Assembly: GCF_028890485.2 (NCBI RefSeq)
Contig: NZ_JARCHV010000001.1
Location: 1,523,698-1,587,697, forward strand
Source of the DNA: Planococcus sp. SK3692
Lineage (GTDB): Bacteria > Bacillota > Bacilli > Bacillales_A > Planococcaceae
Direction: 5' to 3'
Length of the DNA: 64,000 nt
This document shows, piece by piece, positions 24,494-46,857 of the stretch. The translations under genes and the position numbers were made by a program. Each line of letters begins with the position of its first letter. Within the stretch, counting starts at the first letter, position 1. The notes under the pieces are model-generated. The model did no database searches. It was given only the letters and a program-made list of their open reading frames with translations, and was not told where the DNA came from.

Positions 24494-24728
24494 TACAAAA
24501 AGCCCCCTGCACGAAATAGATCATTTCGTACAGAGGACGGATCGACCGCGGTGCCACCTCATCTTGAAGCTCTCAGCTTCCACTTGAACCCCAATAACGC
24601 GGGGCAGACGGGCCTTCTTTCAGATGGCCACTCATAAGTCCATTCACGCATATGCCACACCGGTTCCCAGCTATCCCCGGCTCTCTGTCAGAAGCTATCC
24701 ATGCGCTACTTTTCTTAGTCAACGTTTT
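24494..24728 (-). ncRNA. Tryptophan-specific T-box leader of trpEG
   Basis: On the minus strand, Stem I contains AGAGAG (AG bulge) and the GGTG apical motif. The specifier context is GAA-TGG-A (TGG at 24642-24640, tryptophan). The T-box AGGTGGCACCGCGG (24559-24546) is followed by a terminator hairpin TCTGTACGAAATG/ATTTCGTGCAGG with a U-run (24538-24494). Uncharged tRNA-Trp should pair with TGG and the T-box and switch to the antiterminator. This leader accounts for most of the 24453-24921 gap. The remainder is the AT-rich promoter region of the sugar-binding-protein gene. Confidence 0.92.
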
Positions 24729-24921
24729 TGAATGTGGCGCTTTGTTTCCGCAGCCCTATAAGGTTGCCGCGCAATTAAAAGCTTGTGACCATCTTATGGA
24801 ATTCAGCGCCGTCTGTCAACTGAAAGCAAACACTTAATTTAGATAATTCTGTATTTATATGGGGATTTGGGTTATAAATATAGTAGAAGAATGTTTCTAA
24901 AATCGAAGGGGGTATCAGAAA

Positions 24922-36608: not shown

Positions 36609-36642
36609 TTAAAAGCTAGAGATTCTGTCTCTAGCTTTTTTT
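36609..36642 (+). terminator. Terminator of the P450 gene
   Basis: TTAAAAGCTAGAGA-ttctg-TCTCTAGCTTTTTTT. Confidence 0.9.
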
Positions 36643-36655
36643 ATTTGCTGGAAAA

Positions 36656-36902
36656 GAAGATAGCGAAGGTTTGCTTGTCTCATTGTTCCATAATTCTATT
36701 TGAACTTCAGTTTAGTAGTCGCCGCCCGACTTTGGGTTGGCCTCTTGCCATAAGCCAGGAAGTACGCCTGTCTTACGGCATCGGCTCACCCTGGGCGCCT
36801 GGCGGCTGGGAGATTTCAATTTGTGGAGCATGATTAGATAGATCTGCTTCTATAATCAGTTGCCGGCTAGTGGGGAAATCGCTTCCCGGATCGAGCGTAT
36901 GC
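36656..36902 (+). repeat. Structured non-coding repeat, element I, copy 1
   Basis: About 245 nt, beginning GAAGATAGCG. The central region folds as GCCGCC ... GGCGGC enclosing GGGT-x-GGCC/GGCT-x-ACCC and an inner hairpin GCCATAAG-c-CAGG-aagtacg-CCTG-t-CTTACGGC (36747-36779). It ends in GGGGAA-atcgc-TTCCC. Copy 2 follows in tandem and a third copy lies at 46.3 kb. No ribosome binding site or protein-like conservation. Confidence 0.85.
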
Positions 36903-37135
36903 GAAGATAGCGAGGGGTTGCTTGTCTCATTGTTCCATAATTCTATTTGAACTTCAGTTTAGTAGTCGCCGCCCGGCTTTGGGTTGGCCTCTTGCCATAA
37001 GCCAGGAAGTACGCCTGTTTTACGGCATCGGCTCACCCTGGGCGCTTGGCGGCTGGGAGATTTTATTGATCGGGTGCGTTTAGATAGACCCGCTTCTTTA
37101 TCGAGTTGCCGGCTAGCGGGGGAATCGCTTCCCGG
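36903..37135 (+). repeat. Structured non-coding repeat, element I, copy 2 (tandem)
   Basis: Direct tandem copy of 36656-36902, nearly identical over the first ~170 nt. The ~50-nt segment before the terminal GTTGCCGGCTAG block is diverged. The stretch 37136-37297 behind it has no recognisable feature. Confidence 0.85.
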
Positions 37136-37297
37136 AATGCGGCGTCTTATAATGAACTGCTCAAATCGAACAACTTATTGGTCAACATTGTGACTGACAC
37201 TATTAAAAAGACACCTTTATTCGACCTGGCATCAATTTCAAGTCCTGAAGCATTTCAACAATCTAGCTCAAGTAAGCTGAAGAAACTATCGTCCCTC

Positions 37298-37453
37298 TAA
37301 AACTAGAGACGAAGTGGAAGGGGGGCTGACTCCTGAGGGACCGCGCGGGCTGGCGAGACAAATGTACGGCGCTCTTTGCCGTACATTGGCTCAACACCCG
37401 CCCCTCGGAAAGCAGCCCCCCTGAAACGCAGTCGAAAAGCGGAAGCTTTTCCA
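37298..37453 (+). repeat. Structured intergenic repeat, element II, copy B
   Basis: Outer arms AGGGGGGCT/AGCAGCCCCCCT. An inner perfect 10-bp stem AATGTACGGC/GCCGTACATT (37361-37387) has a 7-nt loop. It starts TAAAACTAGAGACG and ends CAGTCGAAAAGCGGAAGCTTTTCC, both shared with copy C at 46.7 kb. Related to copy A at 10.2 kb. Confidence 0.8.
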
Positions 37454-37582
37454 CTTACTCTTTATCATGCATCTAAACGTATGACCCGCAAATTACAGAT
37501 TCTAAGCCATAACAAACCAACAATTGACAGAACACGCCCCATCTTATACGATAAGGCAGGAAATTAAATAACCCGGCAACGG

Positions 37583-37621
37583 GAGAGGTTCATAGCATTC
37601 CACCCTCTATAAAAAACTATG
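37583..37621 (+). ncRNA. preQ1-I riboswitch aptamer
   Basis: GAGAGGTTC...ACCCTCTATAAAAAACTA matches the class-I preQ1 aptamer: stem AGAGG/CCTCT, the C-containing binding loop, and the A-rich tail forming the pseudoknot. It sits upstream of queF and a queuosine-precursor transporter, the textbook targets. Confidence 0.93.
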
Positions 37622-37633
37622 GATTTTGAAATC

Positions 37634-37722: not shown

Positions 37723-38217
37723 ATGGCAGGAAGAAACGAAGAAACACTCGAGCATTTGTCTTTGCTCGGCAACCAGAACACGCGCTACAAATTCGAGTAC
37801 GACCCAGGCATTCTAGAAGCGATCGACAATCTCCACACTCGCGATTACTTCGTCAAATTCAATTGCCCAGAATTCACTTCGCTGTGCCCGCAAACCGGCC
37901 AGCCGGATTTCGCGACGATCTACTTAAGCTTTATCCCAGACAAAAAACTCGTCGAAAGTAAAGCCTTGAAGCTCTATTTGTTCAGCTTCCGCAACCACGG
38001 CGATTTCCATGAAGATGTCGTCAACATCATCATGAACGACTTGATCGAGCTGCTTGACCCGCGCTATATCGAAGTATGGGGCAAATTCACTCCGCGCGGC
38101 GGCTTGTCGATCGACCCGTATACAAACTACGGCAAGCCCGGCACGAAATACGAAGAAATGGCGACGTACCGGATGATGAACCACGACATGAATCCGGAAA
38201 CGATCACCAACCGCTAA
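37723..38217 (+). CDS. queF: NADPH-dependent 7-cyano-7-deazaguanine (preQ0) reductase
   Basis: 164-residue type-I QueF reducing the nitrile of preQ0 to the amine preQ1 in queuosine synthesis. Nucleophile Cys55 and Asp62 lie in [25 protein letters not shown]; the QueF motif with the substrate Glu is [16 protein letters not shown]. Length is typical for unimodular QueF. Regulated by the upstream preQ1 riboswitch and followed at 12 bp by the transporter gene. queCDE are not here. Confidence 0.95.
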
Positions 38218-45969: not shown

Positions 45970-46173
45970 GTGAAAAAGAAATTCTACGTCTACAACATAC
46001 TGCTGACAAACGGAGACGTGCTAGAAGGCATCCGCATTGAAGGCGCGCTTGAAGACCATTTCATCGGCATTGCCGTCAGCCTGTTTCCGGTCGAAGATGC
46101 AGCGGGCAAGACGCTTGTCTTGAACCTCTTCCACATCGTGCGTGCTGAGCTTGTGCGCATTGAAGAAGCTTAG
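45970..46173 (+). CDS. Small hypothetical protein (67 aa)
   Basis: Starts at GTG 45970 with a strong AAAGGAGGAG 6 nt upstream: VKKKFYVYNILLTNGDVLEGIRIEGALEDHF..., ending VLNLFHIVRAELVRIEEA. All-beta, SH3/Hfq-like patterning is possible. An N-terminal extension in the same frame crosses the divergent methyltransferase gene and is spurious. Element I repeat DNA begins 2 nt after its stop codon, with no separate terminator visible. Confidence 0.7.
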   Translation: MKKKFYVYNILLTNGDVLEGIRIEGALEDHFIGIAVSLFPVEDAAGKTLVLNLFHIVRAELVRIEEA

Positions 46174-46174
46174 T

Positions 46175-46262
46175 GAAGATAGCGAGGGTCAACTTGTGGA
46201 AATGTGTTTGCTGTTCTATCGGAACTTCAAGTTAGTAGGGGAATCGCTTCCCGGGACATGAT
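46175..46262 (+). repeat. Partial element I repeat (internally deleted copy)
   Basis: Has the element I head (GAAGATAGCGAGGG ... GTTAGTAG) joined directly to its tail (GGGGAATCGCTTCCCGGGA). The ~150-nt central hairpin domain is missing. Confidence 0.7.
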
Positions 46263-46265
46263 TGG

Positions 46266-46503
46266 AAAAGATAGCGGGAGTTTAGATGTTGAATTGTTCT
46301 TGCTTCTGTTTGAGTTTCGCCTGAGTAGTCGCCGCCGGACTTTGGGTTGGCCTTTAGCCGTAAGCCAAGAAGGACACTTGTCTTACGGCATCGGCTCACC
46401 CCTTTACGCTCGGCGGCTGAGTGATTTCATTGAGTGAAGAATGTTTAGTCAGTCCGGCTTCTGCAATCAGTTGCCGGCTAGTGGGGAAATCGCTTCCCGT
46501 GAT
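46266..46503 (+). repeat. Structured non-coding repeat, element I, copy 3
   Basis: Diverged copy of the 36.7-kb repeat with the central fold kept. The inner hairpin is GCCGTAAG-c-CAAG-aaggaca-CTTG-t-CTTACGGC (46356-46388). The pair G-C of copies 1 and 2 (CAGG/CCTG) is A-T here (CAAG/CTTG), a compensatory change. It is followed by 46504-46654, which shows no feature. Confidence 0.85.
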
Positions 46504-46654
46504 GTAGTGTCTGGCACATTGGTGCTTTAGTCGAAAATGTTGGTGGCAGGATCAGAACTAACTAGCTTCTCTACAGCAAAGATGACTCGAGCTACAAAAC
46601 AGGAAGCATCTCCACTTTTTCTATCGAGTGAACAAAAAAAATTTCCTCCCCTTC

Positions 46655-46802
46655 TAAAATTAGAGACGGAGTGGAAGAGGGCGACTCCGGGAGGAATAGC
46701 GAGACAATTGAGACCCTGCAGGAGCGTAGCGACGAAGCGGCTCAATGCGAGCCCTCCGGAAAGCGTCCCTCTGCAACGCAGTCGAAGAGCGGAAGCTTTT
46801 CC
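46655..46802 (+). repeat. Structured intergenic repeat, element II, copy C
   Basis: Outer arms AGAGGG/CCCTCT and TCCGGGAGG/CCCTCCGGA; inner TTGAG/CTCAA around the core CTGCAGGAGCGTAGCGACGA. Head and tail are shared with copy B at 37.3 kb. Confidence 0.8.
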
Positions 46803-46857
46803 AATCACTTCTTTTCATTCCAAGTCTTCTAATTCCCACTCTCAACGTTTGTCTCAA

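Follow-up and report, generated by a model that had tools for sequence, protein, structure and literature searches.

The window, that is, the whole 64,000-nt stretch of Planococcus sp. SK3692 DNA analysed here, carries three copies of a structured repeat, element I, with a unit of about 245 nt and a core of three helices (P1-P3) of about 86 nt. A shortened copy and a second repeat, element II, lie close by. The features are as follows.

36611..36639, + strand: terminator-like hairpin of the upstream gene, immediately preceding the element I array
36656..36902, no strand: element I copy 1, a subfamily Ia unit of 247 nt (repeat comparison and model match)
36721..36806, - strand (favoured by the P3 mispair statistics): P1-P2-P3 core of copy 1 (fold and covariation), with P1 at 36721-36726/36801-36806, P2 at 36734-36742/36783-36791 and P3 at 36747-36779
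36872..36887, no strand: 3′ hairpin P5 of copy 1, with a GCGA loop when read on the - strand
36903..37135, no strand: element I copy 2 (repeat comparison and model match)
36968..37053, - strand: P1-P2-P3 core of copy 2 (fold and model match)
37280..37470, no strand: element II, a GC-rich repeat whose inverted arms (37319-37339/37402-37422) measure 21 nt each; it lies about 145 nt past the element I array
46174..46257 (about), no strand: shortened copy of element I, its 5′ module fused to the 3′ hairpin, without the P1-P3 core
46266..46503, no strand: element I copy 3 (model match)
46331..46417, - strand: P1-P2-P3 core of copy 3 (fold and model match)
46635..46818, no strand: element II copy past copy 3 (two BLASTN pieces)

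Copies 1 and 2 share direct repeats of 161 nt at 97% identity (36656-36816 and 36903-37063) and, further along, at 86% identity (36834-36890 and 37080-37136). A covariance model from 54 copies, the three window copies themselves among them, finds three full-length copies in the window, at 36713-36889, 36960-37135 and 46323-46500, each with E < 1e-43; the shortened copy is matched weakly (46136-46254, E 0.0065). With up to two mismatches allowed, the inner-hairpin motif occurs at three window sites, exactly the three copies, against 0.01 expected from shuffled sequence. The tandem pair and the third copy with a common nested fold, which the initial annotation had described from the letters, are thereby confirmed, and the helices it quoted, with their 7-nt loop, are present in the window and recur in other copies. 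The copies do not stand as a local tandem pair but belong to an interspersed, genome-wide family.

BLASTN gave 44 matches in the own genome, and the covariance model R1, made from 54 full copies, gave 77 at E ≤ 0.01. One partial reverse-strand match overlapping a + strand copy was dropped, and the remaining 76 occupy 46 places: 25 single copies, 15 pairs, 3 triples and 3 quadruples. Spacings within the arrays (n = 30) cluster at 244–248 nt (13), 214–220 nt (7) and 264–266 nt (4). Other genomes hold 43 (G035), 71 (G004), 89 (G019), 100 (G208) and 105 (G224) matches. Within the genus, R1 matches all 46 genomes searched; the best match has E < 1e-40 in 14 of them (subfamily Ia, the window's type) and is weaker, from 2e-16 to 2e-5, in the other 32. 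The broader model R2 has matches in 91 of the family's 261 genomes, spread over 5 of 19 genera, the order-level search set being also of 261 genomes. Eight genomes outside the genus, searched together, have 3 to 105 matches each. Three sequence subfamilies can be told apart, namely Ia, Ib (in other Planococcus genomes) and Ic (also in the own genome), and P2 and P3 are common to all of them.

The G019 genome has a stretch of 817 kb (G019:C1:1316228-2133086) free of any match, a gap whose chance is 0.00035 for 44 random loci. A replication-strand bias and an avoidance of the terminus were both considered and dropped, as both hinge on the position of the origin; the first 3 kb of the G019 contig are without the ORF, presumably DnaN-like, that is found in the corresponding stretch of G035, G009 and G022.

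According to a naive ORF caller, the neighbouring genes are codirectional at 29 of the 46 own clusters (14 and 15 by orientation), convergent at 14 and divergent at 3, and 3 clusters overlap an ORF call. Most of these places are common to a related species, so that the copies look resident. For 34 of 40 own regions a syntenic element locus exists in G004, whose copy at the window locus is the closest, with flanks mostly at 85–95% identity (lowest 77). One locus, L144, was followed through seven relatives: five have two or three copies, one has an internally deleted copy, similar to the window's short form though with another junction, and one, G004, is rearranged, the flanks of L144 being about 12.5 kb apart there and the element gone. 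A precise empty site was found in none of the seven relatives at this one locus. Terminal inverted repeats shared among copies (arms of at least 10 nt) were sought in five regions and not found, a single 10-nt pair at 90% flanking the L136 element only. The suggestion that element I is a MITE-like miniature mobile element thus finds no direct support.

Taken singly, the copies do not fold exceptionally well (copy 1 has z -1.43 on the + strand and -2.38 on the - strand), and the case for the fold therefore rests on comparison. Two alignments were used, A1 with 54 full-length distinct copies and A2 with 55 of 117 sequences, all retrieved with a motif in which some of the hairpin letters are fixed; for A2 the Ia copies were thinned, and two broken copies, among others, were omitted. 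Over the three subfamilies, P2 and P3 in the 55 selected copies show 135 double-changed cells against 44 ± 5 when shuffled, and a covariation score of 0.321 against 0.141 when shuffled and at most 0.116 in slid controls; these shuffle-based statistics are not tree-aware, and the copies are related, so the counts are not independent events. In subfamily Ia alone, 15 of the 35 pairs of the fuller structure changed on both sides (5.3 when shuffled). Two controls were unhelpful. Pairs changed on both sides numbered 10 of 20 against 7.8 when shuffled, with 3 of 500 shuffles reaching 10, and further pair types numbered 15, under the 21 found on shuffling, since the pairs are Watson-Crick almost throughout and wobbles are rare.

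Among 234 distinct copies, a set drawn from the fetched loci only, several pairs take three Watson-Crick forms. Pair 25-76 is TA in 133, CG in 88 and GC in 7, and pair 29-72 is CG in 150, GC in 69 and AT in 9. The compensatory change from CAGG/CCTG to CAAG/CTTG that was noticed between the tandem copies and copy 3 is in the sequence, and the pair concerned is G-C in 31, A-U in 21 and G-U in 2 of 54 copies. A C.T mismatch and a 7-nt apical loop, AAGAACA on the + strand, are also conserved in the core. The earlier view that the fold rather than a reading frame is conserved is supported, and no ORF of at least 80 aa overlaps 36656-37135.

The comparison with G004 allows changes to be counted between copies at the same place. 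From G004, 67 of 71 matches were entered, after exclusion of one 30-bit match and of three that lay on a short contig. Position paired 66 of the 76 own copies; removal of L142, which has only paralogous element hits, and of repeated partners left 45 pairs, and two with incomplete cores were set aside to give 43. Divergence in these is 9.8% in the stems, 14.4% in the unpaired core and 18% in the rest of the element, and the divergence outside the stems (14–18%) exceeds that of most flanks. Of the 36 double changes in the 43 pairs, 33 replace one Watson-Crick pair by another; independent change of the two sides would give an expected 10.65 doubles. Gene conversion among the copies could create linked double changes and inflate this count. 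The seven pairs that are single-copy in both genomes give 6 of 6 against 2.43.

An A.C mispair on one strand is a G.U wobble on the other, and mispairs may therefore indicate which strand is folded. Read on the + strand, the P3 mispairs of the 234 copies are A.C in 128 cases and G.T in 28, which points to the complementary strand. P1 in subfamily Ia has 8 A.C and 3 G.T, and the structure conservation index is higher on the - strand in both alignments (1.63 versus 1.52 in A2, 1.45 versus 1.28 in A1). In the 43 ortholog pairs the strand preference is only 40 to 20. P2 has no preference (17 A.C versus 15 G.T) once pair 27-74 is left out, which was done because that pair is T.T in 58 copies and hence looks like part of an internal loop; it is G.T on the + strand in 167 of 234 copies, and with it included P2 favours the + strand (182 to 20). 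P4 leans the same way (20 to 9), as does the 3′ hairpin, with 69 G.T to 1 A.C in the register of the initial annotation and 35 to 15 in a shifted register, in which 53 of 54 copies have a GNRA loop when read on the - strand. On the + strand the apical loop is rich in purines. The internal loop between P2 and P3 is mostly purine on the - strand, the third letter of one of its sides being a pyrimidine in 104 of 234 copies. On balance we consider it fairly likely that the - strand is the relevant one for the P1-P3 core. Since G.T wobbles hold in single-stranded DNA as well, they do not prove an RNA.

Rfam release 15 has no family at gathering score on the window element, on eight Ib loci or on five lactobacillus loci, in keeping with the first impression that this is no known RNA family. 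At permissive thresholds the matches are weak and off-core and none covers a core; two of them, at chance level, overlap nothing but the terminator region that precedes copy 1. Elsewhere in the window, Rfam gathering matches identify a PreQ1 riboswitch (37579-37626), which precedes a 164-aa ORF (37723-38217) that we take to resemble QueF, and a T-box leader (24530-24731, - strand).

No description of the element I family was found in the open-licence literature searched, and the family, which is real, is apparently undescribed. Its nearest analogues are other intergenic repeats. According to PMC2817692, REP/BIME elements with their RAYT are likewise intergenic, palindromic, arrayed and present in many copies; they usually number more than 100 per genome, to be set beside the 77 matches of element I in the own genome and the 43 to 105 in the other genomes counted above. 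Element I is similarly extragenic, with copies 1 and 2 free of ORFs of the above length, but it is a unit with nested helices rather than a short palindrome, such as the REP of E. coli at 14–40 nt (PMC12306157), and its arrays in the own genome run head to tail; alternating orientation is found in G224. The bcr1–bcr18 repeats of the Bacillus cereus group are, according to PMC3446304, interspersed and intergenic, some with conserved secondary structure, and 40–51% of copies are transcribed. Element I is likened to them by description and not by sequence, and bcr1–bcr3 are called MITE-like there. Stem-loop families such as Bhal-1 and Bhal-2 of Bacillus halodurans (74 and 76 bp) are the same type of object, repeated, foldable and intergenic, but differ in size and fold; no Planococcaceae genome is named among these families in the accessible part of PMC2267715.

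We read element I as a family of large intergenic repeats, structured, interspersed and resident, with BIME/bcr-like behaviour, in which the selected object is a single-stranded fold, probably RNA, and we give this reading a probability of roughly 0.6. That the selected fold is single-stranded is probable, and RNA is more likely than DNA. Such an RNA would fold when the strand opposite to that read in the initial annotation is transcribed, and the mostly purine P2-P3 internal loop together with the 7-nt apical loop would be a likely contact surface for a host protein. Unequal recombination or slippage would produce the head-to-tail arrays and may also help to keep the copies alike. A family of this size must have spread at some time, and the founding spread probably made use of a mobile-element enzyme. 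A family that sits at 46 places, keeps its shape by compensatory change and is found in a third or so of the family's genomes searched must do something or be copied by something, and its fold, likely strand and copies are now defined enough for direct tests between function and copying.

The first suggestion made for the locus, a new non-coding RNA, holds as to the conserved fold. A stand-alone RNA gene on the + strand with its own regulation would account for the strong covariation, for the G.U tolerance of the 3′ hairpin, P4 and pair 27-74 on that strand and for the purine-rich apical loop, but in the inner hairpin the balance of G.U and A.C speaks for the opposite strand (the helices are not unanimous), and 76 dispersed copies with arrays would be unusual for such a gene. 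A sigma-70-like promoter at a consistent place was sought in two window loci and not found, so a stand-alone gene is unproven, and we regard one on the + strand as improbable. We think just as little of the idea that the element is a DNA site, in duplex or cruciform form, for a protein of the nucleoid or of DNA topology, and that selection acts on the inverted repeats for their symmetry as DNA. The core does match its own reverse complement weakly (E 0.0018–0.017), and the surplus of convergent over divergent settings given above would suit such a site; a symmetric site, however, should tolerate A.C and G.T alike, which P3 does not, and the conserved C.T mismatch and 7-nt loop would be left unexplained.

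A more serious competitor, though still clearly the less likely reading, is a single-stranded DNA element whose hairpins are recognised on one strand by an HUH/Y1-type transposase, as in REP/BIME and IS200/IS605, which would make the family one of non-autonomous mobile elements. Strand-asymmetric wobble tolerance would follow from this as well. A Y1 transposase is present in 29 of the 46 genus genomes, the own included, with just one match in 22 of these, and at L257 (G224:C1:2384200-2387200) a 410-nt unit repeated five times carries nine element-like matches in alternating orientation that look like BIMEs. However, the own Y1 gene, which is RAYT-like (L270, G000:C5:791500-798000), is ringed by a different repeat: five copies of a short sequence like TTGTGTGATGCACAGGGAC, at 2588, 2653, 2726, 3541 and 3606 of L270, stand around the Y1 domain and are unrelated to element I. 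No element I match lies within L270 or within about 1.5 kb on each side of 10 other Y1 loci, so a cognate RAYT flanked by element I was not found among the 11; and G004, G024 and G035, all rich in element I, have no Y1 match. Clusters of mixed orientation number 0 of 46 in the own genome, 0 of 44 in G019, 0 of 38 in G004 and 2 of 41 in G035, and the sharing of most regions with G004 and the missing empty site at L144 also tell against mobility. Mobilisation as a REP by the RAYT was rejected on account of the different repeat around the Y1 gene. A phage origin was set aside as well; the hairpin pattern occurs in 1 stretch of the viral collection.

The hairpin pattern also matches lactobacilli, at 17 loci (16 in Levilactobacillus, 1 in Companilactobacillus) among the 80 listed of at least 113 stretches; as these were found by a pattern containing the hairpin, their hairpin match is by construction. 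The signature on the + strand consists of TAAG, the C.T mismatch, CNNG and a 7-nt AARANCA loop, and it recurs in Levilactobacillus repeats with the same strand-specific wobble pattern (9 A.C versus 1 G.T in 18 hairpins from the 17 loci). The hairpin sits there in a larger structured repeat, one copy of which has z -4.2 and -4.6 for its two strands, and the Rfam search of five such loci gave no match over the repeat. At L296, L322, L349 and other Levilactobacillus loci this inner hairpin motif was seen within large repeats of several hairpins. The best 18 R2 matches in lactobacilli cover the P3 hairpin only and so do not show homology of the whole element. It is a speculative possibility that element I represents, in repeated form, a structured-RNA superfamily of Bacilli that has yet to be described, with a dedicated binding protein and copied by a novel RNA- or ssDNA-based route; if the Levilactobacillus hairpin is a true homologue, the family extends across Bacilli.

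Element II accompanies element I well beyond the window. With one copy as BLASTN query, a search that misses diverged copies, it was found on the same side of element I, 103–167 nt off and in the same orientation, in 26 of the 46 clusters, and in the opposite orientation in none. Elements I and II may form one composite. At several Ib loci, similar sequence can be seen by eye just past element I.
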